64,000 nucleotides of DNA from Mytilinidion resinicola (taxonomy: Eukaryota; Ascomycota; Dothideomycetes; Mytilinidiales; Mytilinidiaceae), in the NCBI RefSeq assembly GCF_010093595.1, contig NW_022985446.1, positions 517,616 to 581,615 of the forward strand. The letters run 5' to 3'. Positions 10,376 to 45,900 of the stretch are shown piece by piece. A program made the position numbers and the translations under genes. The notes under the pieces are model-generated. The model was not told the origin of the DNA. It searched no databases and was given only the letters and a program-made list of their open reading frames with translations. Position 1 is the stretch's first letter. Every line of letters starts with the position of its first letter.

Positions 10376-12007
10376 CTACTGTGATAAAAATCTGCACATA
10401 ATCGAATTGCAACAAGTACCCAGAGTCGTAAAGAAAGAATCGGAGTCTTCATCAAACTCGGAGTCTTCATCAGACTCGGAGTCTTCATTAGACTCGGAGT
10501 CTTCATCGGACCCGGAGATATCTCGTCCCGCCTGGCAGCGTCGCACGCCACAGTCTTGGTGCGTTTTCATGAAGGCATCCAGGTCAAACTGTGGCACCAC
10601 CGCAGTTCTACGCAGTATGTAATCCTCGAAAGCTTTCCAGTGGCACTCTCGCTTGGCTCGGTGGTTGAGCTCCATTTCATATCTGAGCCTAGCCTCACAC
10701 ATACAAGACGCTGCCACCATGCGCGTGCCACTTCGACCAGCAGGTTTACCCGCTAGAACCATGCCACCATGTTCCGTTAAAAGGCTCAGATGCACTTGTT
10801 CCAAGTTCAGATTCTTTGGGAGCGCCACGAGAACGTCTTTTAGCGCTACAAGAACTGATAGATCTGAACCTGTATACCTGGCATTTATCGACGCGAGATC
10901 CAAGGACCGTAGGCTTGGTGCAATCGATTGTAGGAACATTGACAAATGCTTCGCAGTTGTATCAAAACTGGCCAGCGCCACTTCCTTAAGTCGTGGCCAA
11001 GTTCCGGTGTGAAGGCTTCGTGAGTTGTCCGAGAGAAGATGCTGCAGTAGATCGTATCTACTGTCGTGGGACAATCTAATCGCCAGAGTTTCCAAGGAGA
11101 AAACACCAAGCAAGAATGGAGCCAATTGGTCAAGAGCAGATACTGATCGTGCGCCGCGCTCGGGATAAAGTCTGTCAAGGTCGACTTCGAGCTCTGATAA
11201 CACTTTGAAAGCAGGACTTCTCGCGAGAAGACCGTGTATTCGGGGCAGGTTTGGCACGTCATCACCCTCACGGTTCATGCTTTGAAAGACAAGCTGAGCA
11301 CTCTCGTTCGAAGAAGGACTGCTGACGGTCGTGCGTCCAGAAGAGTCTGCATTGTTCGGTTTTCCCGTCATAGCTAGGCTGTGAGGAAGGCAACTGAGTT
11401 GAGCGTTGCCGCCGTATCGATGATCAGAACTGTCCGGCCCATGCGTGGATTCCAGGTGTGAAATCGGGCAGTAGGTCACGGGCTGAACCCTACCCCCATA
11501 TGTATGTTCGTATGATCCCTCTCCCATGGTAAGCATGGTGTCGTCTCGATACTTCATTTCTGCTGAACACCTAATACAGTCCTGCGAATTCCTTCGACTA
11601 TTGAATTGCTGCAGGGAACCATGAGAGTAGACCACTTTCTTGACATATTTGGCCAACCTCTCATCAGAGGAAATCGTGATGAGCCACTCCAGATTCTCTT
11701 TTATCGGTGCGATATGCACGGTATGGAACACGTAACGAGCAGAAACCCGAGCAAAGGATTTGCACGTCTTTCGCAGCCGCTTGACTGAGGCGAAGTCGGA
11801 TGCAGCATGCATAGCAACACGCTCCAGCAGTTCTTCAGGGAGATAAACACCAGAAAGGTGCAGGCCGGTTTGTTCTGGCTGTTTAAGGACGACCGGTCTT
11901 TCTTTTTGTGGCTGTATCGCAACATGTAAGCCGGAATGTTCAGAGTAGAGATAGTAGGTCCACGTACGTCCATGATGTCCGATACCAGTCAATAGTCCAG
12001 GGTACAT
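10376..12007 (-). CDS. F-box-like protein with acidic repeat tail (543 aa)
   Basis: Single-exon gene. The frame is open to 12091, but the first ATG is at 12007. About 55 residues in, YLPEELLERVAMHAA...VKRLRKTCKSFARV matches the start of an F-box/cyclin-like domain, suggesting an SCF-type adaptor. The middle part (LPRIHGLLARSPAFKVL...LETLAIRLSHDS) has irregular Leu spacing as in fungal F-box proteins with degenerate Leu-rich repeats. Near the C-terminus lies an acidic repeat (SDEDSESNEDSESDEDSE), encoded by four 18-bp units at 10443-10514, then a short hydrophobic end. The substrate is unknown. The F-box call rests on the motif and is moderately sure. Confidence 0.7.
   Translation of the reverse strand: MYPGLLTGIGHHGRTWTYYLYSEHSGLHVAIQPQKERPVVLKQPEQTGLHLSGVYLPEELLERVAMHAASDFASVKRLRKTCKSFARVSARYVFHTVHIAPIKENLEWLITISSDERLAKYVKKVVYSHGSLQQFNSRRNSQDCIRCSAEMKYRDDTMLTMGEGSYEHTYGGRVQPVTYCPISHLESTHGPDSSDHRYGGNAQLSCLPHSLAMTGKPNNADSSGRTTVSSPSSNESAQLVFQSMNREGDDVPNLPRIHGLLARSPAFKVLSELEVDLDRLYPERGARSVSALDQLAPFLLGVFSLETLAIRLSHDSRYDLLQHLLSDNSRSLHTGTWPRLKEVALASFDTTAKHLSMFLQSIAPSLRSLDLASINARYTGSDLSVLVALKDVLVALPKNLNLEQVHLSLLTEHGGMVLAGKPAGRSGTRMVAASCMCEARLRYEMELNHRAKRECHWKAFEDYILRRTAVVPQFDLDAFMKTHQDCGVRRCQAGRDISGSDEDSESNEDSESDEDSEFDEDSDSFFTTLGTCCNSIMCRFLSQ
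10443..10514. repeat. 18-bp tandem repeat, four units, inside the F-box-like gene
   Basis: Units start at 10443, 10461, 10479 and 10497 with consensus GAGTCTTCATCAGACTCG and one to three changes each. On the coding strand each unit adds six residues (Glu/Asp/Ser), so copy-number change keeps the frame. Confidence 0.85.
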
Positions 12008-12656
12008 GCGGCAACGATCCCTATGCTGGAATGAGGGATCAGGTCTGGCATATGGCTCCTGAGGATTACTCCCAAAGACGGTCAAGGGCACCCAGAAGTA
12101 ACTTTGGGGGGAAGGAGCGAATTTCGGAAGAATCTGAAGGTGGAAAGAGAGCTTGTGCGGGGAAGGGAGGTTGGAGCTGTACAGATGCTTTTTAGCGTCA
12201 GGTACACGTGATGCCCGAAGAAAGTCTTGGCTGTGAATATCTATCTCTTCCTACTTGAATACTAAGAAGAGGTTTCGTGCTTCTGGAAAATCTGTATCGC
12301 TCATAAGCAACTGGCAAATGATTCATGCAGTGGGAACTTAAGACTCACGTGACTATATTATGAACCCTTCTTTTTAGGCGCCAACTTGAGTAGCTTACTG
12401 ACACGATAATTCATATCACAAAACGTTATATACACTAACAAGAATATCGTATACGCCGCGCTAACAAACATCTACAAGACCGACCGTGCACTCTCATGAC
12501 GAAGTTTAACCAGCGCCTAATGCAGTCCTGTTCGGTGTAGTCCAGCACCCCTCATATATACATCCTGGGTCTTCCATGATGCATTAACGACGCGAACCGT
12601 GAAACCAACCCATCCCACGAAACTCCAGAAACGCCACTGCCCCGACTCTGAGCTAT
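12008..12656. other. intergenic, no gene seen
   Basis: Spacer between two leftward genes: promoter of the F-box-like gene and 3' region of the DUF3405 gene. CACGTG cores occur near 12206 and 12347. No ORF with domain character. Confidence 0.5.
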
Positions 12657-15119
12657 TTACCCATCCTTCTTCTTGTCTCCATCTCCAGCTTCATGCTCAA
12701 ACACCAAATCGACCTGCTTGACGGGATGTAGCAGCATAGCTGGCACACACATCCGCCCCTCCCCAGAAGTCTCGTATTGTTCGCCCCCGTCGTTATCGAC
12801 CTTATAGCCGAGCCACCTCTTCCACAAGTTCGGCGCGAAGCCCGCATCGTAGTACCAGGTCGTGCCTCGGAAATTGTGCTGTCGCTCATCGCTGAAGACA
12901 GACAACCGGGCGCCACCCGCAGCTCCATTACGCCCACCGTTGAAGATAGCGGCGAGGTAAGATGTAGGCCAGCGTCGATCAATGAAGACCGGGTGCGGAG
13001 CATAGACAACCTTGTAGCCGTGATGTAGAGCGCAGGAGCCCGGCCACATCTCAGAAAACATAGTGTGGCGGTAGATTGCAGTCTCTCTGTGCATCGTCTC
13101 AAGCAGCTTTCTTGATAGCCTGCTTGCAGTCACGATGGCGGTTCGACGAGGCGGAGGTTCGCGCGTGGTGTTGTAGCCGGTGACATCGTCAGCGAGGATC
13201 CAGTTTGTACCGGCAGGGTCAAAGAGAGGATTGAATGTGATGAAATCAGCATCCTCGCCGACGCCCCAAACATAGTCGTCGTCCTTGTAGGCGGTTGGAG
13301 GCTGTGGCGCGTCGGACAAGTCCAGCTCATCGTCCAACGGAGGTTCCGGACCCCAGATTGGCTTTTCTGGCTTACTAGGCTCGGTGATCGATTCGGGTAC
13401 ATTGGGGTTTGCGGGGAGTTTCTTGGACCAGTTGTTGGCCTGGGAATTTGTGCCATGCTCGGTTTGAACGCGAACCATCTGCATGAAGTCCTCCCAGCTA
13501 CCATGCTCTTCGGGGATGTAGAAGCGGGAATTGCGTTCCCACAGACCCTTTCGCGGTTGTGCGCGAGCGAATGCGGCAATGCGGTCGAAAAGATGATAAA
13601 AGTGGCCGGTATAACGCACGTCCATCTCCCATTGCCAGATGTATTCAAACTCGGGGTGCTGGTGTGCAAAGTATTGCACAGGCATGTATGTGCTCCGATA
13701 TGCCCCGTGAACGGGAAGGCTGCGGTAGAAGGACTCTGAGACACCTCCATAGATGAGGCCCATTTGCCTCTCCGACCAAAGGGTCCCCATGCCGGCGAAC
13801 TCGGCAGGCAAAGCTGCGGAGAGGACAGATTGGTAAATAGACTCGTCGGCCCATATCTGCTTGTTGTCGTCTTTGACGTGGATCAGGAAGTGCACGGTAT
13901 ATTCGCCTCCGGAGTGGATGCTGAGTTCGGAGATGAGAGCACGCAGGTAGAGGAGGTCTTCCTCGTCGTAATTATAGTCCCACCAGGTACGAATCAAAAC
14001 AACGGTACGAGGAAGTTTTGTGAGGTTTTCAGTAGACGTAGAATTGGCAGATGGAGTTGCCTTTACTTTCGCTTCTCGCGTTTCGATGGAGTCAGCCGTT
14101 TCATCCTCAGGGCCATTCATGGCCATGGTCTCGAAAAAGTGGTTCCTGCCCTTCGGTTTTGGTTTGAATCGGAGATGATTCTTCTCCATGCATCGATCTT
14201 GCGCTTGCTTCCAGCTGATGTTGCGGTAATCGACCTCGGGGATGTCTTCCCAGACCTTCTCTGCCATTTCTCGGTCGCCTTCCATGCCAGCGCCAGTGCC
14301 ACCCATCTTTCTGCTGTAGCCCAAGCCATATGGTCCCAGTCTTCCATAACGCTCGAAGCATACATCGTTGTTGATCCCTAGAACGTCGTATGACCCAATA
14401 ACATTATCCGGGAATCCTTGCGTGACCCCGGGGAAGGCTCGTAGTGGCGGAATCATTATCGTTTTTGCTTCGTCCAGATAACATGTCTGAACTGGGGCGT
14501 ATTTTGTGAGGTAATCAGCCGACTCGTAGTTGGGATAAGGATTGAAAGTGTTCCCAGCTGGTACATTCCCGCCTTCCATTCTACGCTCATTCTTCTTTGT
14601 GTCCGGCGCCTCGGGCACTTCTTCTCCATTGGGATACTCTGGGACGTTTTCTTTCCGCGATGTCAATGTCCGTATGCCACCGTGGTATCTCTTCAAGAAC
14701 GGGAAGGCTTCCCAAACCGCAGGTGGTGGCGGTGGCTTCGCCAATCCCAACTGCACATTTTTCGCGCTCGACACGCCCATCTTCGCCAAGAACAGTATAA
14801 AGAGCAACACTGTCGACGCCAGCGCTACGGTAAAGTAGCGCGAGAACGCTCTCGGATTTCGATACGAGTAGGCATTTATGGTCGGTTTCGATAGCGATCG
14901 GCGGCGCAGAGGCGCATGCACCCCCGACGAGGCGCGGGAGGAGAAAACGGAGGAGGGAGAGGAGAGGTAGTCGGTGTCGAAATCGTTATCGTCAACGGCG
15001 TAGCGCTTCTCAACGTCGTCGTAGTAGGCTGAGTCGTCTTCCGTCTCGGCGGGCACCCGCGAGTAGGACTGGAATTTCCGCTTGGCCACCTGGAGGGGCC
15101 TGAAGCTTAAGGCGGCCAT
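12657..15119 (-). CDS. DUF3405 family type II membrane protein (820 aa)
   Basis: Single uninterrupted frame with a true ATG. The N-terminus is cytosolic and Ser/Arg-rich (about 90 residues). One membrane helix follows at about residues 95-113 (TVALASTVLLFILFLAKMG), then a long lumenal domain. Family landmarks of the fungal DUF3405 proteins are visible: TVVLIRTWWDYNYDEEDL, a mid-domain FEYIWQWEMDVRYTGH, and DADFITFNPLFDPAGTNW; then VVYAPHPVFIDRRW and TTWYYDAGFAP near the end. The layout (short cytosolic tail, signal anchor, lumenal D/E-rich motifs) resembles Golgi glycosyltransferases, but no activity is established for the family that I know of. A variable Pro-rich insert (SKPEKPIWGPEPPLDDEL) interrupts the domain. 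Confidence 0.92.
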   Translation of the reverse strand: MAALSFRPLQVAKRKFQSYSRVPAETEDDSAYYDDVEKRYAVDDNDFDTDYLSSPSSVFSSRASSGVHAPLRRRSLSKPTINAYSYRNPRAFSRYFTVALASTVLLFILFLAKMGVSSAKNVQLGLAKPPPPPAVWEAFPFLKRYHGGIRTLTSRKENVPEYPNGEEVPEAPDTKKNERRMEGGNVPAGNTFNPYPNYESADYLTKYAPVQTCYLDEAKTIMIPPLRAFPGVTQGFPDNVIGSYDVLGINNDVCFERYGRLGPYGLGYSRKMGGTGAGMEGDREMAEKVWEDIPEVDYRNISWKQAQDRCMEKNHLRFKPKPKGRNHFFETMAMNGPEDETADSIETREAKVKATPSANSTSTENLTKLPRTVVLIRTWWDYNYDEEDLLYLRALISELSIHSGGEYTVHFLIHVKDDNKQIWADESIYQSVLSAALPAEFAGMGTLWSERQMGLIYGGVSESFYRSLPVHGAYRSTYMPVQYFAHQHPEFEYIWQWEMDVRYTGHFYHLFDRIAAFARAQPRKGLWERNSRFYIPEEHGSWEDFMQMVRVQTEHGTNSQANNWSKKLPANPNVPESITEPSKPEKPIWGPEPPLDDELDLSDAPQPPTAYKDDDYVWGVGEDADFITFNPLFDPAGTNWILADDVTGYNTTREPPPRRTAIVTASRLSRKLLETMHRETAIYRHTMFSEMWPGSCALHHGYKVVYAPHPVFIDRRWPTSYLAAIFNGGRNGAAGGARLSVFSDERQHNFRGTTWYYDAGFAPNLWKRWLGYKVDNDGGEQYETSGEGRMCVPAMLLHPVKQVDLVFEHEAGDGDKKKDG

Positions 15120-15758: not shown

Positions 15759-16946
15759 TCAATCAGGAAACACTGGTCTATACGGATTTGGAGCCTCGAC
15801 TTCTCCAGCAGGAAACACAGGCCGATACGGATTCTGGACTTCTTCTTGCTGTGCGACCCTTTGAATCGAAGCCGGATCCGGGGGATACACCGGGAGGAAT
15901 GGATTTTGAGGCTCGCGAGGAGCAGCGCTGGCAGGCGTTTGAGGCTGTTGAGGGCCTTCACGATGTTGCGAGATAGGCGCCGTACCAGATAGATCTCGCG
16001 GCAGATCTGCGGGCAATGGCTCCAGGTGCGGCGATGGTGCTCGCCCAAGATACAGACTCAGCGTGCGGTCATGAATAAGCGGAAAATGGTAGTTGAGAAG
16101 CACGCGAGCGGAGAGGGGATCGAGCCTCACAGAAGGGAATTGGTAGTACTTCAGCCGGCCGATTTCGATCCAATAAGACTTGCCTGTCTTTACGTAGACG
16201 TTTTGGCTCAAAGGAGAGGAAATTCGGTCGAGGTTTAGTACGGGCGTACCGTCATGGCCTACGACCGCTGTATTCGAAATGAGCAGGTATTGTTGTCGAA
16301 ATGCCCTAGCCTGGGCACCTTTTTGTATGCCCGTCTGACTAACATCTTTCGTCGTGGTGGGCAAGATACGAGCAAACTCGTCGCTGATTTCGACTACAAC
16401 CGCAAGATGGTTCAGAATTGAATATCCCTCCCTTTCGTCCCCGATTTGTGTATGGAGTATAGAGTCTGTCCCGATGCTCGTCTCGTCTGGCACTTGCATG
16501 ACCGCTCCCGGTGCTATATCCAGCTGTCTCAAACGCGTCCAGATTATATTCATGCCGTTTGCGTCAATCTCGATGGTTTTCCAGCGGTACTGTTGGAGGT
16601 TGAACGCCTCGATCCGGAAGACCTCCATCTTTATCCATGTCCTACCGTCCATCTGGGGTGATTCGGGCGTGACTTGAACTTTGACCTCATCGTCGGGTGG
16701 GCTGTTCAAGTCCTGGATAGCGATGTATTCGAGTCGTATGTCTGAAGGCGTTGGACCTGTTCCGTATATCCCTCGAAAAGTTGTCAAAGGTAGGAAGCGG
16801 ACGACGTTGGGGGTTTCGGCAAACTCGATGACAAGAACAGGATGATTGAAGAAGCCTCGGTTTCCTACGACTTGCTGATGTATGACTGAATCTAGCGGAA
16901 CGCTTTCGAATCTCGGGAGATAGTAAATATGGTTTGTAGTGACCAT
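15759..16946 (-). CDS. repeated-domain protein A, two domain copies plus NPYRPVFP tail
   Basis: Single-exon gene of 395 residues; no named family recognised. It contains two copies of a domain shared with the three rightward genes that follow (18371, 21506, 25049). Copy 1, about residues 5-140: IYYLPRFESVPLDSVI, FFNHPVLVIE, VVRFLPLTTFRG, WIKMEVFRIEAFNL. Copy 2, about 142-290: DIAPGAVMQVPDETS, LAVVVEISDEFARILPTTT, TPVLNLDRISSPLSQNVYVK, YWIEIGRLKYY. The C-terminal 100 residues are Pro-rich with three related motifs (NPFLPVYP, NPYRPVFP, NPYRPVFP). No signal peptide or membrane helix. It points away from its paralogues, sharing a 1.4-kb divergent promoter region with gene B. Function unknown. Confidence 0.8.
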   Translation of the reverse strand: MVTTNHIYYLPRFESVPLDSVIHQQVVGNRGFFNHPVLVIEFAETPNVVRFLPLTTFRGIYGTGPTPSDIRLEYIAIQDLNSPPDDEVKVQVTPESPQMDGRTWIKMEVFRIEAFNLQQYRWKTIEIDANGMNIIWTRLRQLDIAPGAVMQVPDETSIGTDSILHTQIGDEREGYSILNHLAVVVEISDEFARILPTTTKDVSQTGIQKGAQARAFRQQYLLISNTAVVGHDGTPVLNLDRISSPLSQNVYVKTGKSYWIEIGRLKYYQFPSVRLDPLSARVLLNYHFPLIHDRTLSLYLGRAPSPHLEPLPADLPRDLSGTAPISQHREGPQQPQTPASAAPREPQNPFLPVYPPDPASIQRVAQQEEVQNPYRPVFPAGEVEAPNPYRPVFPD

Positions 16947-18370
16947 TTTCCCTCCTGGAGAAATATCAGCTTTTGTTGGCTACTATGAAAGCTGAATGAA
17001 CGAAGTATTCAGTACGAGGGGGTATTCTGCCCCAGACGATTAGGAAAGGTGAGTGTAAGAAGCGGTGTCGAGGGTGTTCAGCTTGCTAGGAGGACGATAT
17101 TTGGAAGATTGAAGAGGTGAGGAGATAAGGAAGCACAGCCGTGGAAGCTGTTTTTAGTCTGGGGGGCTAAACGAGCGTCTAACATGTCAGAACAAGAGTG
17201 CACGTGCTCGAAAGAAGTTATAGGTAGAAGAGAGGAAGTTCCTTTACTCACAATTGTTCTCTTTCTATACCTTCAGGGCGCCTTTCCAGATTCCCGCCCT
17301 CCTCTACCCGGCTGTCTGTGGTTTCTTGGAGAGTGAGCCGCTTTCCAGTAGTATCAAAATAGAGGGGAGCATGAGTGCGAGCATTCAGGGCTAGGTAATT
17401 GTTAGAGTATCAGTGTTCAAACTGACCGAGTTTGTGACAGGCTAGCATGATGGAAGTCTCAGTGTTGTGGTGACGGGAGAGGCGCGCCCGGTTCAAGTGC
17501 TTACGCGTGTGTGTATCGCTAGGAGTAGTGAAGGGATCCACAGCAGTACCTCCAGGCTTGCAAGACAGTATGAACCTCCCTGTGTGCTACTTGGTCTGTG
17601 GTGATCAAGCGGCAGGGCTTATGGCCTGTCAAACGGTTGGTGTTAAGGCTGTAAAGCCGTTTTTCAACATCCACAGCAAATTGCTCTCGACCAATTCAAC
17701 TCGACGCCAACCCAACTCGGATGGACAATCAAATCTCGCTAATCAAGGGAAATAATAGTAATTATCTGCTATCTCGGGACAGAGGCAACACCGGCATGCT
17801 GTCCTTCTTAGGCTGTCAGTGGACGCCCATTCTCGCAGACGATGCAAAACAGCTGCTGTATATCGAAGAACTCATCGCCACCATCTTAACGAAGTGTACC
17901 CTCCACAGTGTCCTCTGCTGTTCTGCGTTGGAATGAATATGCCTCTCCAGCATTGCCTCATGAGTAACGACGATGGCCGCCAAACTAGGCAAGCAAAGCA
18001 AAAGCACATGGAGGCACCACGATGCGTTTCAGTGAACTTGGTACTTGGTGAATTTGAAGCTCGCTCTGGTTTCACTAATATGCCTAGGCGTGAATTCTCT
18101 CCCCTCGTACTTGTATGCCCCCTCTGTGTCTCCGCCATTGCCCAGTCTCTTTATAGATTCATAACCATAACTCCAGCGACCACATACGGCACAACAATTG
18201 GCTGCTACCCTTCCTGCTCGAAAAATATCCACTTCCATCACCATACGCCCAACGGCAAGCCACCAATCTGCGCCTCGTCTGCCACCTATCCGCGCCTCGT
18301 CTGCCACCTTTTGCGATCCTAGCATCACCACCCCAGCCTTACCTCAGAGAAAGCGACCATAGCACGCGAA
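16947..18370. other. divergent promoter region between paralogues A and B
   Basis: 1.4 kb between the leftward gene A and the rightward gene B. It contains a CACGTG palindrome at 17201-17206 and pyrimidine-rich stretches before the B start. Short ORFs on both strands (17507-18331) overlap one another and show no domain. Confidence 0.5.
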
Positions 18371-20368
18371 ATGGCCACTCAAATCGGCCAATTCTATATC
18401 ATCGAGGAGGAGGAAAACTTGAATAAGTCTATTCTTATCGCCCAAGACCTACCAAAGCATTACTATAAACACCCGGTAGTGATAGTAGGGTCTCATCCTG
18501 GTACTGGCAACCCGATGGTCTATCCCACCCTACGCGAGCAAGATGGACTACAAGACATTCAGAATAAACCAAATGACCGTCGCTGGTATTTTCCTCTTCG
18601 GAGCCTCCAGGCCCACCATGATGGCACTGAAACTGCCACCATGGAGATGACATTCGCCTTTTCGTCGAGGATACTTTGGACTCCGCGATGGATAGACGTC
18701 CGAAAACGATATGAAGTCGAAGAAAAGTTCCTACACCAATATATTGAATCTGACGGTCCCTTTTCCACTCCACCTACGATCTTGTCTAGCTACTTCCTAG
18801 AGCTACTAAAGGCGTACGCAGCGTTTATACCCGGGGTAATAGTCTGGCTTCCCCAGCCAGAGCTTATTCATCCCAGCTCCATCATCTTCCAACAAGTCAC
18901 CTCCTCGAAAATCTTTGGTCGACCTGTGGTAGTGACTGAATTCGATCGATCAAATGGTATTATTACATTCCACCTGTCCACGACGATGGGCAACAAGACA
19001 TTCAGGCAGATAAACGCGGAAAGGGCATCCGACAAGTTCTTCAACCGCGCTTTACGGCACGACTATCTTGTTCTGGTGGACAAAAAGGATGACAGCGTAG
19101 ATTACGGCTTCAAAGTCGCCACGCTGAGAGAGGATTCCGCTCCGTTGATCAAACAAAGCTTCATGAATGTAAAGGAGAAGTTTCAGATTGAATACGTTTA
19201 CCTCAACTGCAGTCTGTCTAAGAAGAACAAGTACCGTGTCATGCTCGACGATGCGTCCCTGGATCTGGTCAGGACAGAAGTTGCCGCTGCCCAAGCACAT
19301 CCCTTGATGTGGCCACTTAAGGACGTACCGTACGTGCCACCGAAATGGGAAGAAATCGAAGACGGCAAGGTCTATCTTCTACCCGAACAACTCCCTAATC
19401 CGACCGTTCTGCATGAACAAACTGCGCAAGATAAGATCAACATATACGGACGCGCATGCCTCGTCACTGGAAAAAAGAACGGAATGGTTCGAGTGCTTCC
19501 GATGCGGGAGTTCGGTGAAGTGCCAATTGCATCGGTGTTCTCTGGAGACAAAGTGACAGAGCGGCGAGAACGTAGCTTGCACCTTGCTGTTGAAGGTTAT
19601 GGTGCTAAATCTCACGATAATACCCCACTCTTGAACCTGAGACACGGATCGCCTCAGTTTTTGAAGCCGACCTTCGTTACAGTCGAGAAAGACTACTACG
19701 TCGAGTACACAAATCTACGAGCGTGGAGTCCGATTCCAATCTTTTTGGACGCCTCTGCGTTGGAAACTATTTTGGAATATCGACGAAGAAATCATCTCGA
19801 CAAAACGAACATACCCAAGTCAACGGAGGAGGCTCTGGCCGGTAACCATCCATTCTGCCACGGACTGGCAGTCTCAATGCCATACGGGCAAGAAAATGAG
19901 CAGCACCATGTCTCTACTAGAGTGGAGCAAACCCCGCCTAACTTTCGGGGCGCACTTCCTCCCCACAACATTCACTACAATCAGCACTTTCACCATGCCT
20001 ACATGGGGCCGCCGCAGCCGCCCGTCAGCATCCACCACCAGTGGCCTCAACAGCACACAGGGCAAGCGACATTTGGTCCGGGATCTATAGCTCCAAGGCC
20101 CACACACTTTCATCACCCATATACGCATACGCCTACGGCCCATCCTTATGCCACACACGGGGCCCCTTACAGGCCAGTCGGGATGCCAGTGTTCAACCAA
20201 GGCGGTCAACCTCCTCCGTATCCGACTGTTTTACCTCCACATAACACGCTCGCAACGAATCCTGGCGCTAGGATGCCATTCTCGGGCAATCAGCCAAGCC
20301 AAGCAGGCGCGCATTCTGGGCATCCATTTTTCCAAGAGAGGTCTCGAAATTTCTTCCAAAAGCGATAA
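18371..20368 (+). CDS. repeated-domain protein B, three domain copies plus Pro/His-rich tail (665 aa)
   Basis: Single exon, true ATG. Three successive copies of the array's domain. Copy 1, about residues 5-150: KHPVVIVGSHPG, WIDVRKRYEVEEKFL. Copy 2, about 155-315: FIPGVIVWLPQPELIHPSSI, FGRPVVVTEFD, FHLSTTMGNKTF, LIKQSFMNVKEKFQIEYVYL. Copy 3, about 325-490: GKVYLLPEQLPNPTVLHEQT, GRACLVTGKKNGMVRVLP, TPLLNLRHGSPQF, FVTVEKDYYVEYTNLRAW. It is closest to gene C in order and wording of all three copies. The last ~170 residues are Pro, His, Gln and Gly rich, low in charge, and probably disordered; they do not match gene C's tail. No enzyme motif, signal peptide or membrane helix. Function unknown. 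Confidence 0.82.
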   Translation: MATQIGQFYIIEEEENLNKSILIAQDLPKHYYKHPVVIVGSHPGTGNPMVYPTLREQDGLQDIQNKPNDRRWYFPLRSLQAHHDGTETATMEMTFAFSSRILWTPRWIDVRKRYEVEEKFLHQYIESDGPFSTPPTILSSYFLELLKAYAAFIPGVIVWLPQPELIHPSSIIFQQVTSSKIFGRPVVVTEFDRSNGIITFHLSTTMGNKTFRQINAERASDKFFNRALRHDYLVLVDKKDDSVDYGFKVATLREDSAPLIKQSFMNVKEKFQIEYVYLNCSLSKKNKYRVMLDDASLDLVRTEVAAAQAHPLMWPLKDVPYVPPKWEEIEDGKVYLLPEQLPNPTVLHEQTAQDKINIYGRACLVTGKKNGMVRVLPMREFGEVPIASVFSGDKVTERRERSLHLAVEGYGAKSHDNTPLLNLRHGSPQFLKPTFVTVEKDYYVEYTNLRAWSPIPIFLDASALETILEYRRRNHLDKTNIPKSTEEALAGNHPFCHGLAVSMPYGQENEQHHVSTRVEQTPPNFRGALPPHNIHYNQHFHHAYMGPPQPPVSIHHQWPQQHTGQATFGPGSIAPRPTHFHHPYTHTPTAHPYATHGAPYRPVGMPVFNQGGQPPPYPTVLPPHNTLATNPGARMPFSGNQPSQAGAHSGHPFFQERSRNFFQKR

Positions 20369-21505
20369 CCAGGCACGGCGTGGGGTAAGGACCGCTCGTT
20401 GTAGAGCCCGATTTCTAGAGTAAATCTGCAACTGCTACTACTATTAGTGCTGCAGCTGATCAAAGGACTATTTTGTTCTTTCTTTCTCCGACGAGGTAGA
20501 TTAGGCACTGAGTTGAGCAAGGTTTGATACACTAATATCTTTTCTATGGTTTCCTTCAGCCTCTAGCGTAGTATTCAGGTAACGTAGGATGTAAATAGAG
20601 TTTATACTCGTGTAATGTGTCGGTCTCACACAAGAACTTTTGTATCTCGGCTACTCTAATAGTGATATTTGACGTTTTCCAACCCATGTTTATTAATTTT
20701 CGTACTACGTACCTTTATGGTAGGCTGATTTTACAGACTTGAGCTTTGATTCCACATATGTCTTAACCCGAAATCTCATTTGCCTTAGAAGATGATCTCT
20801 ATAATCTGATTGCTACGTTCACAGTTCCCAATGTTTCCAATGGAACTAATTTACCGCTTGCTGTACCCCTTTCAATTCAGAAAATTGCTCGGGAAAGCCT
20901 TCTTCGAGAGCCTTTCTTATTGAAACATGGTCTAGTTTCTCCGTTCAGTCGAGGCCGTCCCTCCGTCACATTCGCATAAACGACGCCGTAAGGTCGTGAG
21001 AGGTGCTTTCGTACACCATAAAACACGAACACGAATATCTGCGACAGCGCATTCAAGTTGCTAGATCTCATATCAAAGGATACTCCCTGGATTGCTTCAG
21101 TGTTTATTCAGCTGCCAAAAAGAATCAAACGCATACTACTTCTCCACTCAAGCTAGTATATGGCTCATTCTCATGCCTTGAACGCGCCGTGTAGCACTCT
21201 AATACCGCATAACAGGCTCGGCTCCAGCGTTATATTCACCACGGTGCGTTTTAGTGGCTAATCAGAATCCATGGTGAAACGGCCCTTATTCAGCCATTCA
21301 CTACCTTGACTAACATGTGGACTAGTGTCCTGCATAAATAGACTGTCCTTTTCTACTTCCTTCCGCAAAGCCAACCACCTTCAGCACACCACCCAAACAA
21401 CTCACCACCCTCTCGAAACCCCTAGAACCACTTCGAAACCCCCACACATCTTCCCAGCATAAAACATTGCCTTCAAGCCTTCCAATAGCGCGACAACTCT
21501 CCAGC
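20369..21505. other. intergenic, promoter of paralogue C
   Basis: AT-richer spacer. A TATA-like CATAAATA lies at 21333-21340, about 170 bp before the chosen start of gene C, followed by a C/A-rich leader typical of fungal 5' UTRs. Short ORFs near 20877-21194 on both strands show no domain. Confidence 0.45.
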
Positions 21506-23605
21506 ATGGGAAACCGCATCAAATGCGGCACTGTCCACACGCTTGCGGCGAAAGAAGCAATCCACGAGCCCCTGCTACCAAGCCAAGAACTCCCGGACAG
21601 GCATTATGGGAGCCAAGTGGTTGTCGTAGAAGTTTGGGGGAAAGGCAACATGGTTTCCTTCCTACCAATCGTGGCCGGCGGTCCAGGAATAGACGAGGTA
21701 GCACAGAGCGGCCGGTGGTATCTTCCACTGGAGAGCCCAGACCACACTCCGGAGATTCAAACCAAGGAGCTGAAGTACGGCTGCTCGTCCAACAAGCCGT
21801 GGGCCGTGCGATGGGTGGATGTGCGGAAGCAGTATCGCGTTGAGACCGAGTTTCTCCTACCGTATACGGACTGGAAGATGTGGGAGTGGGGATCGACGGC
21901 GGCAGATCTTGCAGCGCCGTTGTCTCTCGAGAACCGTTCGCTGGAGTTACTTCAGTTGTACTACATGCTGGTTCCTGGAACCTTGGCTTGGCTTCCGACG
22001 AAAACTTCGATTGCGCCGGACTCGGTTATCTTCCGACAACAGACGAAACTGGACTTCTTCTATCACCCGGTGTTGATTGCGGATTTTGAAGTGTCGACTG
22101 GAATGGCATCATTCTACATCATTACGACCATGGGAAACAAGACTGTCCAAGAGGTGAACTCACAGACGCAAACTGATGGATTCTTCAACCGCGTGTCAAG
22201 ACAACAGTATGTCCTGCTTCAAGACAAAATCAAATCCAAGGACCTAGGGTTTGAGGTCATAACTCCAGGAGTAGGAAAAGGGATGTACTCGGGACGATTA
22301 ACGAAGCAAAGCTTTGTGAAGTTGATCACCAAGTATTGCATAGAGGGGAAGTACCTCAAACTCTTCCGCCCGGACGGTGATAGTTCAAAGAAGATAGTAC
22401 TTGATGCTGCGTCTTTGGAAATTCTGAGAGTCCAAGCCGCCAAAGCACAAGAACACCCACTCGGAGTGATAATCAGTGGCGAGGGGCGCCCACTTCGGTG
22501 GAAGGACTTTGAAGAAGGATTCGTCTGCTACTTGCCGCCCGTCTTGAGCGAACCGTCAGTCGTGCACGCACAGACCAAAGAGGACAGCATCAACATCTTC
22601 GGCCTGCCTTGCCTAGTAACGGGTACGGTCAATGGGATGGTGAAGATCCACGTGATTTGGAACAACGGCCAGGACCCCATCACGCGGATCAATCGTCTTG
22701 GTGAGTATGCCCCGGCATGTAGCCTTGCCATTGATGGATTTGGAGCCCAACCTCACGATGATGCGCCCATACTCAAGCTCAGGCCGGGGTCTCCGCAATT
22801 CCGTAGCCTTTGCTACGTGAAGGTCGACAAGGAATACTGGGTTGAGTACACAAACCTTAAAGCTTGGAGCACGGAGCCTATCCATCTGGACGCTGGTGAG
22901 GTCGAGACCCTCCAAGAATACCGAGTCCAGAATCAGTTGTACGGTTCCGACATGCTTCCGGAGACGATGAATGCGCTCCGAGGACAACATCCCTACATTC
23001 CTGGATTGGCAATTTCCATGTCGTTTGAGGAAGAAGGGAACGTCCCGGAGACGGTCGAGCATCCAGGATGGGCAATGCAGACTCGAACGGCCCAGCAAGG
23101 TAGCCTTCAACCACCGTGCCCGCATGGTCTACAAGCGCACTCTCCGACCCCTTCGATGCTCTCGGGGTCCACCCAGTATGCTCCTTTGCCTCGACTAACG
23201 TCTGCAGCGCCACCCGCAGGCTCTCCGACGAAGCCATCTTTACATGCTCATGAGCTGTCCAACAGCATTGACGCAACCCTTACCGATAGCACCAACGACG
23301 ACAACGCGGGCGGCCGCCGAATATATATCGGCAACCTCATCTACCAAGCAAAAGCATCAGACGTCCATGCTCTTTTCACCAAGAACGGCTTCACCGTCAA
23401 ACGCATACTGATGGATTGGGATCACGCCGCTGGCCGCAACCCATCGTTCTGCTTTGTAGAGCTACCGACCCCAGAGGAAGCCAATCGCGCGATTGCGACC
23501 CTCAATGGTCGCATGGTACTGGGTCGGCCGGTCAAGGCGGGGCCTTGTGTTCCGCGGAAGATATACCGACGGTCGGATGTCCGTTTTGGAGGGGATTTTA
23601 GGTAG
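21506..23605 (+). CDS. repeated-domain protein C, three domain copies fused to a C-terminal RRM (699 aa)
   Basis: Single exon. The frame opens at 21467 with TTG, but the first ATG is 21506 and aligns with the start of gene B. Three copies of the shared domain. Copy 1: YGSQVVVVEVW, WVDVRKQYRVETEFL. Copy 2: LVPGTLAWLPTKTSIAPDSV, YHPVLIADFE, FYIITTMGNKTV, LTKQSFVKLITKYCIEGKYL. Copy 3: CYLPPVLSEPSVVHAQT, CLVTGTVNGMVKI, APILKLRPGSPQF, YVKVDKEYWVEYTNLKAW. After a Pro/Ser-rich linker (about 530-600) comes a canonical RRM: RNP2 IYIGNL at about 606-611 and RNP1 NPSFCFVEL at about 645-653, then EEANRAIATLNGRMVLGRPV. An RRM binds single-stranded RNA, so the protein may bring the unknown domain to RNA; that is inference. 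It is the only family member here with the RRM. Confidence 0.87.
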   Translation: MGNRIKCGTVHTLAAKEAIHEPLLPSQELPDRHYGSQVVVVEVWGKGNMVSFLPIVAGGPGIDEVAQSGRWYLPLESPDHTPEIQTKELKYGCSSNKPWAVRWVDVRKQYRVETEFLLPYTDWKMWEWGSTAADLAAPLSLENRSLELLQLYYMLVPGTLAWLPTKTSIAPDSVIFRQQTKLDFFYHPVLIADFEVSTGMASFYIITTMGNKTVQEVNSQTQTDGFFNRVSRQQYVLLQDKIKSKDLGFEVITPGVGKGMYSGRLTKQSFVKLITKYCIEGKYLKLFRPDGDSSKKIVLDAASLEILRVQAAKAQEHPLGVIISGEGRPLRWKDFEEGFVCYLPPVLSEPSVVHAQTKEDSINIFGLPCLVTGTVNGMVKIHVIWNNGQDPITRINRLGEYAPACSLAIDGFGAQPHDDAPILKLRPGSPQFRSLCYVKVDKEYWVEYTNLKAWSTEPIHLDAGEVETLQEYRVQNQLYGSDMLPETMNALRGQHPYIPGLAISMSFEEEGNVPETVEHPGWAMQTRTAQQGSLQPPCPHGLQAHSPTPSMLSGSTQYAPLPRLTSAAPPAGSPTKPSLHAHELSNSIDATLTDSTNDDNAGGRRIYIGNLIYQAKASDVHALFTKNGFTVKRILMDWDHAAGRNPSFCFVELPTPEEANRAIATLNGRMVLGRPVKAGPCVPRKIYRRSDVRFGGDFR

Positions 23606-25048
23606 AGATCCGGAGGGGAGGTAGGCAGGGGCTGGTTGAATGTTCAAAGCGATGCGAGAGTTGCGGTTGAAAAGGCTGACGAGGGAGTTTTTGCGAAGGG
23701 CTCTTGATTTTTGACTGTTTGGCCAAATTGTACTTTTGATGTATTGCAGTCCTATCGTCCTTAGACGTAAGTCTAGGCACTCTTTTTTGCCACTGCTTCG
23801 TGGGCGCCAATGGGCTTTTGAGACCCAAAAAACAATGTAAAGGTCGATACAGTGGAAATCAGATTACGTTTTGACTGGCTCAATGCTTGCCAGCTGGGCT
23901 CCTCCTCACAGTGGCGCTGAGCGGGCAAGAGTGGAAACCGCGCGGCGGTATATCTGTGGACCCATACTCATGTCATATTATTTTTATTTTTGTGAGAGTC
24001 GTTCTTGGGGCCAGGCTGTGGGGACGTTTTCTGAATACGAGGACTCGACAGGCCGATATTTTATTCTAAATAGAAATTCTCACGCTCGTGACAAACTTTG
24101 AAACATTTAAAGACCAGTCAGTCATATGATAACGACACGAGTGGTGTTCGCCCTGCATGCGTGAAGCTGTTACGCTGCGGCGTCGCTTAAAGAGAAAGGG
24201 GTACCAGGGTACTGGCATCGCCAAGCCATGGTGACGGTAGATATCAAACCATGGATTCAAGTTTCTAGACACCACTCACTAACAGACACGTAGAGCTCGA
24301 AATCCCCACCTTAACCCATACCCCCTCTCCTCACAGTTAAAGAGGACAAGGACGCAGCTACAATGGCCGTTCGGTGACGCCTGTGTGCGACGCAGGCGAT
24401 ACAGGCAATAGGTCCATACATTGGTCCTAGGCCCATCAACGTCGACTGAAGACGACACTGGACTGCTATCCACCACTTACTGAACTATCGAGCTGCCTCG
24501 TGGTCTCCCATCATTACGACCACCCCAATTCACCAGAATGTTAGCTCATAGCATGTATCAATGAGCTCATGCGTAGGACTGCTTCATCCAATCCAGCGTT
24601 CTAGCAGGCGCGCGTTCGCAACCTCCAGATATACAGCCTCTTTCTTGCGTACGTACCTGAAGCAATTCAAACCCCGACTCTTGGGCCACTGAGCTCCTCG
24701 CGCACACGCATCTTGAGTAAGTCGTGCAGAGCTTTGATGTATCTTGTATCGTGCTCCAAAACTCCTTGACATCTTGTAGCACCCAACATCTTTTCTGCTT
24801 CGCTGACTCGATATGCATGCTGTAGCCGCTTGACAACGTTAGTCCTTGCGGATAACTACCTCGACCACCAAACATCTCCGTCACACCAGTACTTCCACCT
24901 CTTGAGGCTGTCACTCAACACACGGTTCTGGCCCTCCGGGGTCTGCTAGCTTGCTAGTATACCCGCCACCGGCCACTTGTATCCGCGCTCAATCAGCACC
25001 CCCGTCCACACTTGCCTCCTATACCATTGGTAAAGAAGCCTCGTAAAC
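23606..25048. other. intergenic between paralogues C and D
   Basis: 1.4 kb with no convincing gene. Short ORFs on the minus strand (24066-24914) are unlike any domain of the array. I see no extra domain copy here on either strand. Confidence 0.5.
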
Positions 25049-26959
25049 ATGGCTGGGCAAGAGCCCCAACCGCCTCGCTGGGTAACGCCACCTAAGCGTC
25101 TTGTAGCTCCTCTTTTTTCTCCGATGCTCTCCGACTGGCGTCAACTAAATGACGTTCAGCGTCCGTCCACTCCCCGCAACACACATCCGGTTGATTCGCC
25201 GTTCTCTTCGCGCGCAACCCCATCGCCTTCCATGCGCGCCACCACGGCCAGCTCTAACAAGCATCTAATTGATCCAACATTCCCTCCGCGCGCAACCCCA
25301 TCACCCTTCACGCACACCACGACGACTGGTTCCAACATAGGAACACCAAAACAAACAACGCAATGTTCCCAGAGCAAAAGCCTAGCAGCGATGCCATGGT
25401 CTGCTCTCCCTACGCCCCCACCTAGCCCCAAACCGGAAAGCAACCGCCGTAGTATGGCGCTGCAACCGCCTACGATTCGTGTCCCAACATGTCCTCCTAC
25501 GAACACTCTCCGCAATACCAAATCGATTATCCCCCCAGGGTCCTGGGTGGTCGTCCCGGAAGAAGGGCGCGTCTGCCAGCTGCGCAACGACGAGGAACTG
25601 AAGGACTCGATCTGCACAGACAGGGTAGACAAAACTACTCTCGCAGCGCTGGCAAACGGTCAGATCATTGTGGTAGAACGCGAACTTTTTAAGAAAAAAC
25701 TGGCGTTTTACCCACTACTGGACCTGTCGGTCGGGTGTTCTGACGGTCGGGAGACGGGGTGTCTGCTCATCCGGCGCGACTATGGAGAGAACGTGACGGA
25801 CGGCCCGCAAGCGATGACACTGCTACTGATTGACAGGTCCAAAAACCGCAGAATACGCTACCGGGTCGACCTGACGAGAAAATTTTGGGTCGACTTTAAC
25901 GCGGTTGAAGTATACCACTATGAAGACAAGTCGCGTATAGATATCGGCAAAAATGTTCTTGATGCCATCATAGCAGAGGCTGAATTGCTCGCACCTGGTC
26001 GGTCGAAGGAGCCGTGGATGGCTGGCGCGACTCAAGGAAAATATAAGGACGGACGATTCCAACCAGGACAACTTTCTCCGGGAACAGTTGCCAGGTTGTT
26101 TGAGGAACCGGAGGTCCCGATCGATTCCATGATTCGCAAACAAGTCGACGTAGATAAGTTTTTCGGCCGTCCCATCCTCGTGACAGAGGTTCATGAGGAT
26201 GGAAGCGTCTCGTTTCTCCCCATAACAACGTGCCGAGGGCGCGACCCACGAGCAAAGACTCGAGTGCTTAAAGAAAGGTTCATGATGTTCCACCGCAAGA
26301 ACGTTAAAAAGGAGGGGTTTCAGGTGATAAATTACGACCCCAAATACGACGAGCTGTCTCAATTAAGCTGGCTGAAGATCGAAACTACCTTTCGAATCGA
26401 ACAAAAGTACCTTCGCTATAACCTCTTCAACCATGATCCTGTGGATATTCGTGTTAGTAAGGAGTCGTTTGCTTTGATCCAAAAAGAAAACAAAAGAGTC
26501 GAGAGCTCACCGAAAGTCTGCCGCGAGGCGACGGGACCAAGTGCGCACCGTTGGATTCCTGGAGAGATCGGACGCATCCATCCAAATCTTCCGCCTGACT
26601 CCTTTCTGTACAGACTCAAAAACAAACCCATTCTTATCATGGGCGAGAGAAATGGGTGCATCCAAGGATATGAAGTTTGTCTCTTTGGAGATGACAGTGT
26701 CGATCAGCGTTACAAAAGAGACCCATGGAAATATGTTCGGCGCTTAGCCATCGAGGGCAATTGCAGTCATAGCCACGGCGGAACGCCACTGCTAAAGCTA
26801 CACGTCGGCTCCTTACAAATGCCTCAAATAGCATACGTAAACGTGGAACGGCTGTTGCACATTGAGGCAAACAATACTTTGCGCTGGAGCAAGACACCAG
26901 TGCGGTTGGCGGAGTCTGCGCTTCAGGAGATCAGATCCTGGCCATATGCCAAAAAGTAG
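25049..26959 (+). CDS. repeated-domain protein D, disordered N-terminus plus three diverged copies (636 aa)
   Basis: Single exon, true ATG. The first ~165 residues are Pro/Ser/Thr-rich, with a duplicated segment (FSSRATPSPSMRATT and FPPRATPSPFTHTTT). Copy 1 is the most diverged: IPPGSWVVVPEEGRVCQLR, a central part lacking the usual HPVLV, then FWVDFNAVEVYHYEDKSRID. Copy 2 is typical: LSPGTVARLFEEPEVPIDSM, FFGRPILVTEVHEDGSVSF followed by LPITTCRG, WLKIETTFRIEQKYLRY. Copy 3: GEIGRIHPNLPPDSFLYRLK, NKPILIMGERNG, TPLLKLHVGSLQ, YVNVERLLHIEANNTLRW. There is no C-terminal tail, unlike A-C. It has no RRM or other known domain. Function unknown; membership in the array rests on copies 2 and 3. Confidence 0.78.
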   Translation: MAGQEPQPPRWVTPPKRLVAPLFSPMLSDWRQLNDVQRPSTPRNTHPVDSPFSSRATPSPSMRATTASSNKHLIDPTFPPRATPSPFTHTTTTGSNIGTPKQTTQCSQSKSLAAMPWSALPTPPPSPKPESNRRSMALQPPTIRVPTCPPTNTLRNTKSIIPPGSWVVVPEEGRVCQLRNDEELKDSICTDRVDKTTLAALANGQIIVVERELFKKKLAFYPLLDLSVGCSDGRETGCLLIRRDYGENVTDGPQAMTLLLIDRSKNRRIRYRVDLTRKFWVDFNAVEVYHYEDKSRIDIGKNVLDAIIAEAELLAPGRSKEPWMAGATQGKYKDGRFQPGQLSPGTVARLFEEPEVPIDSMIRKQVDVDKFFGRPILVTEVHEDGSVSFLPITTCRGRDPRAKTRVLKERFMMFHRKNVKKEGFQVINYDPKYDELSQLSWLKIETTFRIEQKYLRYNLFNHDPVDIRVSKESFALIQKENKRVESSPKVCREATGPSAHRWIPGEIGRIHPNLPPDSFLYRLKNKPILIMGERNGCIQGYEVCLFGDDSVDQRYKRDPWKYVRRLAIEGNCSHSHGGTPLLKLHVGSLQMPQIAYVNVERLLHIEANNTLRWSKTPVRLAESALQEIRSWPYAKK

Positions 26960-42961: not shown

Positions 42962-45900
42962 TTATGGCTTTCTTTGAATGAATTCTCGATCAAAGGTCTG
43001 AGCCGCCTGTCTCTTTAGGACACGATGTTGGGGTGAAGAACTCGGGTGGGTTGCATCCTCGAACTCATAAAATGGATGCATCCCATTGCCAAGACCCGGT
43101 GTCGGTGTCGAAGTCTCAGGAGACTTTCGACTCCCGCCAAATGCACGGCAACCGGTGTGTATCTCGCTGCTGAGCGTCGCGTTCTTCGATCTCTTGTTTG
43201 GTTCGGGAAAGAGAGAGTGTCGATTTGGTGCCACCAGGCTATCGCAAGACTCATCTGGAGGCCACGATCGTTTTCGCGACCCACTAGGTTCAAGCTCCAG
43301 GCCAGTCATACTCACATCTTGGTTGCCGAAGTCATCCTCGTTGGTGTACGATGTGATACTTGACGACGGTGTGATGCCAGTGCCATCCGAGTCCGTTTGT
43401 CCCACTGTTTCGCTGTCCGATAGGCTTTCGTCCGGATCCTGGCGTATGATAATGGGAGTGAGGGAAACGTTCGGTTGACTGAAGAGTCCTTTAGTCGACT
43501 GAGCTTTGGAAGCAGGCGTGAGCCTTTGTAACACAGAACTATGGTGCCCGAAGATAACAGCACCGTCCATGACCTCTTTTAGGGGACCCGGGGGTACGAT
43601 AGTGCCAATGGCAGGTTTAGGGACTAGCTGCTGTAATCTGACGCACTTGCACCTGTATGCGCCCGGCTCGGTACATGATTCGAAGAGAGATGAGCCTCGA
43701 TGCCATTGTATCCGAGTAGAAGTGAGGTATTTCCGGTTGAGCCTGCACTCTGCAACATCATAGAGGTCGTTCAAGATCTTGATGCTGGCAGCCAGATAGT
43801 CTTTCCCTTTCGGCACTCTTCTCCAGGTATTGCAAAGGGCCCGATCGCGTTTTTTGAGTGGATGAATGAGATCTTCAAAACCATTTGCCAACAGTACCAA
43901 GGCGTCAATGTCGCGAACAAGTCTTGGCCATCCCCCGCAAGTCTTCATAATACTGGTCTGCTTCTGCCGAAGGGGCGAACGCTCTTCGACAATGGCTTTG
44001 AACTCGAACCCTTTCAGGATCTCTTGGCAAGGTACCTCGATGGTTGCCCCAGGTATTTCATCGGCTTTTACATCCTGATCTATGAGGAACTCAAGGAGAG
44101 ACCAGATACTGACGACCAAATCTCGGAATGTGTAGTTGTCATCGTCTAATTCTGTCGATGCGCTTTGAAGTAGCTTCTCTTTGGCGGTCAAGCCTGTCGA
44201 TGGGGTCGAAAAGAGCTTGATAGGGTGACCATCGATTTCAAAAGGCTCCAGCCAATTCCGGTGTTGTGCTATATGAAGAATAACACTTGAAGCTGGCACA
44301 AGCCATGCTCGATTTTCTGCTGTGTCATATAGAGCAACTGGTGCCTTCTCTGCGGCTGACACGATGCGCTTGTAAGGTCCATCTCTTTTGAAATGGCATT
44401 TGCCGTCTTTGGGCCCGAGATTGAAGTTGGCCTGAGCTACGCCGAACTGCTGAAAGCCGAGTGTACCTCCCGCAAGTTTCAGGGAGCTTTCCGCATCCTT
44501 TGCTCCAGAGTAATCGATGTTCTCGTAGTTCGCCGAGCCAGACCCCAGCGCAGTAGTTGCCTCGCTACACCAGCCCACAATAGCTCGAGTTGTGCGAAGA
44601 GATTCTAAGCTCACATCTTCCAAGGTGGCTCGGTTTTTGCATCTTTCGAGGACGTCCTTATAGCTCAGCCGAGTCTCGCAGTCCGGACTGGATATTAGAT
44701 GCCATTGTACAAGATTTCCTAGATTTTTGATGGGCACAAACATGGATGAGAACCCTTTCATGACGACTCCGCCGGCATACTCTACTGCGTGTCGAACTCC
44801 AGCAATACCTGCCATGATATCTATAGGTATCTCTAGTCCTGTCTGGTCTTGACGTTCAGGTATGGGGAAGTTTCGTGCAATAGTTGCACCAGAGAAGAGT
44901 GGAAGCCAGCATGGATTCTCGGTAGGATGTAAAGCCGTACTGCGAAAGGATAGATTCAGGCTGGATGGCCCCTGGGTGATGACAGCTTCTGAGTAGGCTA
45001 TTTGCTCATCTACACTTGAAGAATTCAATGCAGATCCAATCCACGATATTTGCTGAGTGAATTCAAGGAGCCTTTGTGGAATTCCCTTTGCCCGGATCTC
45101 CATTCTGCTAATACCGCCCTCTTCAGGGGACGTTGGAGGCAGAGTGATACCAATGCGGAGTCCTGCGGAGGTGTCTAGGGCAATATCGTTAGTAAAAGAC
45201 ATGAATGGCAAGTGGAAAAAGTGGTGATGAAGGGGTGTACAAAGGCTCGTGGCTCCGACATTTAAGCCAAGTAAAGATAACTCGAGTTCGTGAAACGTGC
45301 AGCTACTAAGGAGCCGAGTCCGAACTTACAGTCAGAAAAGACGCGTTCCTCGGGTTTTGCGGCAAACCTTCTAGCTAATACATCTTGCAGAGAGTCCAGG
45401 AAGAACTGGCCGCTATTGGGCCATGTTGATTGAAGGTATTCCGAGCAAGTGGCTGCCTGAGTGTATAGAGCTGAGCCAGTCAGTGTAATCAAGGATCCCA
45501 GTGGAGGTATTCGTCGGCCAAATTGTGATTTTAAAAATTCGGGTAAACTCCAGTCAACGAGAAATTCTAACGGAACCTCAGTGGTGTTACAAAGCGCACA
45601 TTCCTGGAGCACATCGGGGCCATTGCTAAGAGGTAGCCCTGCGCGGGAACAAGCGCCTGAGCATTTAATCGCCAACGCCGCAAAGACATTTTGTCTGGCT
45701 TGTTCTATTCCGGAAAGATCGTTGTAATATAGATTTCGGCGCACCGCCGTCAACAGATGTTGAAACGGTTCCCCAGAGATTAATAAGTCCCGAATGGGCG
45801 CCAGGTCAGCTGCATACTCGCCATCATCAGCGTCATCTTCGTCGTCTTCTACTGGTCCGTCATCAATGCCTTCACTCGGATCAGGAGTGAATTGTTTGCT

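Follow-up and report, generated by a model that had tools for sequence, protein, structure and literature searches.

Among the described protein families the PemK/MazF mRNA interferases (PF02452; Kid, ChpB, CcdB) are the closest to the proteins considered here. MazF acts as a dimer, in which single-stranded RNA is held between two barrels and cut, and the members of this family are single-module proteins. The present analysis concerns a 64,000-nucleotide stretch of DNA (hereafter the window; contig C10, positions 517616-581615) from the genome of the bark-dwelling fungus Mytilinidion resinicola (Dothideomycetes, Mytilinidiales; 47.1 Mb in 44 contigs), where four genes, designated A, B, C, and D, encode chains with two or three tandem copies of one module of about 150 residues, fused to different ends. 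The best overall explanation is that these genes form a small family of RNA-handling proteins made of tandem diverged MazF-type barrels, and a probability of about 0.5 is assigned to this reading.

In MazF-bs the residues Arg25 and Thr48 are reported to be essential as well as widely conserved, and cleavage by MazF-sth to require the corresponding Arg29 and Thr52 (PMC10893535). With regard to distribution, a 2008 survey reports that no sequence from a eukaryote satisfied all of its criteria and names eukaryotic sequences, including those of ascomycetes, in the looser ParE and Doc classes (PMC2446400), and a 2009 survey places the MazF/PemK superfamily among toxins without other evident role (PMC2701414). 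Among the literature matches listed, no fungal or eukaryotic MazF/PemK family was recognizable by title or abstract start. The fold is already known, and the fungal tandem form with its RRM fusion is not described in the literature and databases searched. A previous examination of the bare letters (the sequence-only reading) had proposed a possibly undescribed protein system; this is correct as regards Pfam, NCBIfam, and the literature searched, but not as regards the module fold, for which a barrel of MazF/PemK type is predicted.

Repeated module and its predicted fold

The module limits were set by hand from the first alignment, giving pieces of 146-165 residues, and the resulting 2+3+3+3 = 11 copies in A, B, C, and D are those counted in the sequence-only reading. 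In a leave-one-out comparison each copy was scored against a profile of the others, its own sequence and orthologues being excluded, together with 2000 shuffles of that copy. All 11 real copies exceeded every one of their own shuffles, which means that single copies align above chance, as the earlier proposal required. Ten copies scored from 32.2 to 109.7 bits, while the most distant one, D1, scored 13.4 bits against 4.6 for its best shuffle; when the twin module of the related B or C protein was excluded as well, the result was again 11/11, with D1 lowest (13.4 against 7.4) and B1 next (26.4). When the 1564 six-frame segments of the window were scanned with a profile of 18 module rows, relatives included, exactly these 11 copies were recovered, and the first hit beyond them had an E-value of 2.9. 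By pairwise BLASTP the links among the copies ranged from strong, as for B3-C3 (46%, 2e-47) and B2-C2 (40%, 3e-37), over weaker ones such as A1-D2 (27%, 4e-10) to D1, which gave no match below E 1.

The AlphaFold model of A1 (pLDDT, the predicted local distance difference test, 86.2) has a fold of MazF type, the same fold is seen for C1 within the model of the C protein, and the predicted strands and helix of C2 are ordered as in A1. The barrel typical of a PemK/MazF mRNA interferase, with the same order of core strands, is present in the predicted structures. Judged from these models, the module is very probably a highly diverged PemK/MazF-type barrel, and common descent with the superfamily, not convergence, is considered probable, with somewhat less assurance. 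The opposite explanation, in which the MazF likeness is convergent or a modelling artefact and the module represents a small, unrelated fungal beta-barrel, draws on the purely predicted nature of the models, on the marginal sequence link, and on Foldseek matches whose E-values reach 1.4e-3 at best; it is regarded as very improbable.

The sequence link was evaluated by profile-to-profile alignment of the 18 module rows with nine MazF/ChpB proteins, one further protein being dropped. The alignment scored 22.3; shuffling the columns 200 times gave 17.0 at most, and reversing the alignment gave 8.9. Searches of other collections were mostly negative: in Pfam only the RRM of C was above cut-off for the four proteins, and the 18 module rows matched no family better than E 0.035; NCBIfam returned RRM models only, all under their cut-offs; the module profile gave nothing meaningful against PDB by sequence (best E 0.56) and nothing better than E 0.029 against PHROGs.

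Active-site-like pair and possible action on RNA

In the register set by this weak alignment, H35-P36 of A1 is paired with R29-P30 of E. coli MazF and T55-T56 with T52-T53, so that His or Arg followed by Pro, and the double Thr, stand at the catalytic Arg and Thr places of PemK/MazF in one module per gene, and additionally in A2. The His/Arg and both Thr are present in 7/7 rows of A1, B2, C2, D2, and their relatives, and His with both Thr in 3/3 rows of A2. In B1, B3, C1, C3, D1, and D3 Thr is absent at both columns in 8/8 rows, three of which keep His, Arg, or Lys at the first place; in B1 a Thr stands in the preceding column, which makes the loss there alignment-dependent. When the seven tandem pairs were aligned, eight columns of the first module did not vary (S20, Q25, P36, T55, T56, I112, E113, and L117), of which three (P36, T55, T56) fall in the active-site-like motifs. 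The Lophium mytilinum counterpart of C2 carries one additional residue next to the double Thr.

A separate observation concerns a Ser (S96 of A1) and a Glu (E113 of A1), the best-kept polar residues, each present in 17 of the 18 rows, with Asp in the odd Glu row. Their conservation extends to modules without the active-site-like pair.

A number of results weigh against the RNA-handling family of MazF-type barrels. The fold evidence consists of predicted structures throughout, and for C the overall quality of the model is low (pLDDT 58; predicted template modelling score, pTM, 0.44). The profile alignment with MazF/ChpB is weak (probability 7.5%), the A1, B2, C2, and D2 rows alone were equalled by 5 of 200 shuffles, and the position-1 rows, compared with MazF and ChpB only, gave no match. 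PF02452 itself matched neither the four proteins at E 10, nor the 18 module rows at E 5, nor the genome at E 10, where three of 14 control genomes do match. At the residue level, the alignment offers nothing among the modules like Glu24 of E. coli MazF, the Thr pair is lost in 6/11 copies, and His replaces Arg in three of the five copies that keep it; in this weak register Arg with Thr is found in 2/11 copies (B2, D2) and His with Thr in 3/11 (A1, A2, C2). Finally, of the antitoxins, the two families tested, MazE_antitoxin and RHH_1, gave nothing above cut-off in the whole genome. In sum, the fungal modules differ from PemK/MazF in the missing PF02452 match and in the absence of the Thr pair from most copies, and the array differs in its lack of a MazE- or RHH-type antitoxin above cut-off and in its place on a eukaryotic chromosome.

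The same data are used by the strongest alternative, in which the MazF-type barrel is a scaffold for protein or chromatin binding by tandem barrels, like many SH3-like repeats, with no RNA function besides that of the RRM in C. The loss of the Thr pair from the majority of copies, the lack of an antitoxin of the two tested families, the position of the best-kept polar residues outside the pair, the restriction of a recognizable RNA-binding domain to C, and the marginal link to MazF all agree with it. It does not account so readily for the fact that each of the four genes keeps the pair in one module, whose eight invariant columns include P36, T55, and T56. The scaffold explanation is considered a substantial possibility, though on balance not the likely one.

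If the modules are RNA-handling barrels, the neighbouring modules of one chain might pair in cis in the manner of the MazF dimer. In each chain one module would retain the His/Arg plus Thr combination that marks the active site of MazF; the remaining modules, which for the most part have lost it, would act as RNA-gripping or structural partners. The ends, i.e. the RRM of C, the proline-rich repeats of A, the Pro/His tail of B, and the disordered N-terminal part of D, would set the target, the partner, or the place of action. Since no MazE- or RHH-type antitoxin was above cut-off, any restraint needed would lie within the chain. The chances that the modules function on RNA at all appear about even. 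Actual cleavage of RNA by them is doubtful; cleavage by A1, B2, C2, and D2 is possible. The complete scheme of fungal multi-barrel MazF-type endoribonucleases, with one active barrel paired in cis with degenerate ones, in-chain restraint, and exchangeable ends for aiming, for instance an RRM that another gene also has, is more unlikely still.

Duplication, relatives, and protein ends

Own-genome searches were made in six frames with single-sequence queries (the four proteins and modules C2 and D2), and the modules were detected nowhere beyond the four genes, C also matching RRM genes. One further candidate at C21:190560 (E 0.375, one stop inside) was counted as noise, no module being visible in its open frames. 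The two most similar genes are B and C, with 40% identity over 506 residues. In the module tree the modules at like positions cluster (four label changes, where shuffling gave 8.5 on average and a value as low in 0/200), although no position group was monophyletic with support (35% for position 2, 2% for position 3, and 0% for position 1 in 200 bootstrap trees) and D1 forms a very long branch. Because of these weak position clades and the long D1 branch, it can be considered only likely that the modules multiplied before the genes did; on the like-position reading, A is without a first-place module.

Relatives were also sought in a large collection of about 5.8 billion proteins, by a search that reaches only relatives sharing short words (7995, 4975, and 7996 scored candidates). 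Apart from the proteins of M. resinicola itself it returned two from Lophium and one from a metagenome, and nothing else, a result that is no evidence of absence. One of the searches did not return gene B (665 residues, within the length limits), which may or may not be present in that collection. The two Lophium mytilinum proteins, both hypothetical, are BU16DRAFT_543094, an orthologue of A (76%), and BU16DRAFT_565723, an orthologue of C with the RRM included (82%); each is on a contig of length 1,613,766, perhaps the same one. The metagenome relative of A has 375 residues (49%) and comes from a 3-kb contig. In Lophium no orthologue of B or of D was obtained, neither protein having served as a single query. 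Presumably a similar motif order also occurs in hypothetical proteins of many filamentous ascomycetes, in which case the family would be much wider.

In comparison with Lophium the modules (C1 79%, C2 84%, C3 85%, A1 75%, A2 83%) are better conserved than the C linker (71%) and the A tail (67%), the identity of the RRM being 81%. This bears on another explanation, in which the array is a recognition or incompatibility locus, with growth or invading RNA as the target of its diverged toxin-like paralogues. Four diverged paralogues in a tight cluster at a single locus and a toxin-like fold would suit such a role; however, modules of A and C that are 75-85% identical in another genus are unlike rapid turnover, and PADLOC yielded 0 families for 4/4 proteins at E 1, so this explanation is given little credit.

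The RRM of C passes the Pfam model PF00076 (38.5 bits, cut-off 20.7). Its reciprocal best match in the genome is the RRM carried by a separate gene at 612389-613096 of contig C2, with 53% identity over 98 residues, the next match having 29%, and no module match was obtained at that gene in the own-genome searches. The simplest reading of these sequences is that C captured a copied RRM. For the ends of A, B, and D no donor was found in the searches of the own genome with whole proteins, ends included. Consequently, of the proposed local duplication followed by tail swapping, the duplication is well supported by the confinement of the paralogues to this locus, the B-C identity, and the clustering of like-position modules, while the swapping finds support for the RRM of C only. 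As to the other ends, the Lophium orthologue has three copies of the tail repeat of A, NP(F/Y)xPV(F/Y/W)P, and the metagenome relative has one; the repeat resembles a short peptide ligand. D has a single sub-threshold Pfam match (E 0.061) inside its disordered part.

Gene structure and meaning of the array

The four open frames were found where the sequence-only reading had placed them (Table 1).

Table 1. Genes, modules, and other elements of the array (window coordinates)
Feature	Positions	Strand	Description
Gene A	15759..16946	-	395 aa; modules A1, A2 and proline-rich tail; open frame
Module A1	16508..16946	-	residues 1-146; H35 and T55-T56 as MazF-like pair
Module A2	16071..16517	-	His and both Thr present
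Tail repeats of A	15765..15905	-	three NP(F/Y)xPV(F/Y)P, at residues 348, 372, 387
Gene B	18371..20368	+	665 aa; modules B1-B3 and Pro/His-rich tail
Module B1	18371..18826	+	His present; Thr pair unaligned
Module B2	18818..19309	+	Arg and both Thr present
Module B3	19343..19807	+	Arg present; Arg-Glu instead of Thr pair
Gene C	21506..23605	+	699 aa; modules C1-C3, linker, RRM; frame from ATG at 21506
Module C1	21506..21970	+	pair lost; MazF fold in the C model (predicted)
Module C2	21968..22462	+	His and both Thr present
Module C3	22502..22954	+	pair lost (Leu; Trp-Asn)
RRM of gene C	23321..23533	+	PF00076, E 1e-9, residues 606-676
Gene D	25049..26959	+	636 aa; Ser/Thr/Pro-rich disordered N-terminal part, then modules D1-D3
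Module D1	25526..26005	+	most diverged copy; pair lost
Module D2	26051..26515	+	Arg and both Thr present
Module D3	26516..26956	+	His/Arg replaced by Lys; Thr pair lost

Gene A is deposited as BDZ99DRAFT_476881 with a model of 445 residues, i.e. with a 50-residue N-terminal extension beyond the plain open frame. This extension (16947-17450, minus strand) maps upstream in pieces and in another frame, from 17394 downwards and at 16955, which implies introns in the 5' part of A. The Lophium orthologue is without the extension and starts at the Met of the plain open frame, and both modules of A share one frame. The modules of all four genes do lie in uninterrupted frames, but the contrast with a region in which nearly every other gene would be intron-rich was overstated, because the DUF3405 gene adjoining the array (12657-15119) is a single uninterrupted frame of 820 residues covering the whole Pfam model, long frames exist elsewhere, and the A model itself implies 5' introns. 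Further stop-to-stop frames above 600 codons, each a candidate single-exon gene, are 10379-12250, 42965-45325, and 58585-60450. The last of them (plus strand, 622 codons) has a Skp1 dimerisation domain near its start (PF01466, E 7e-12) and far exceeds the ordinary Skp1 length; the other two (both minus strand; 624 codons for 10379-12250 and 787 for 42965-45325) have no Pfam match at E 0.001. The GC content at third codon positions is 0.53-0.61 in the four genes, inside the span of 0.50-0.88 measured for seven further frames in the window, and therefore gives no sign of recent foreign origin.

If true, a fungal chromosomal family of tandem MazF-fold copies that lacks the usual antitoxins and includes one RRM fusion would mean that a eukaryote has domesticated a toxin fold. 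H35 and T55 of A1 and their counterparts are single residues on which the RNA action of the copies can be judged, and the array may encode RNA-handling proteins of a kind so far undescribed for fungi.
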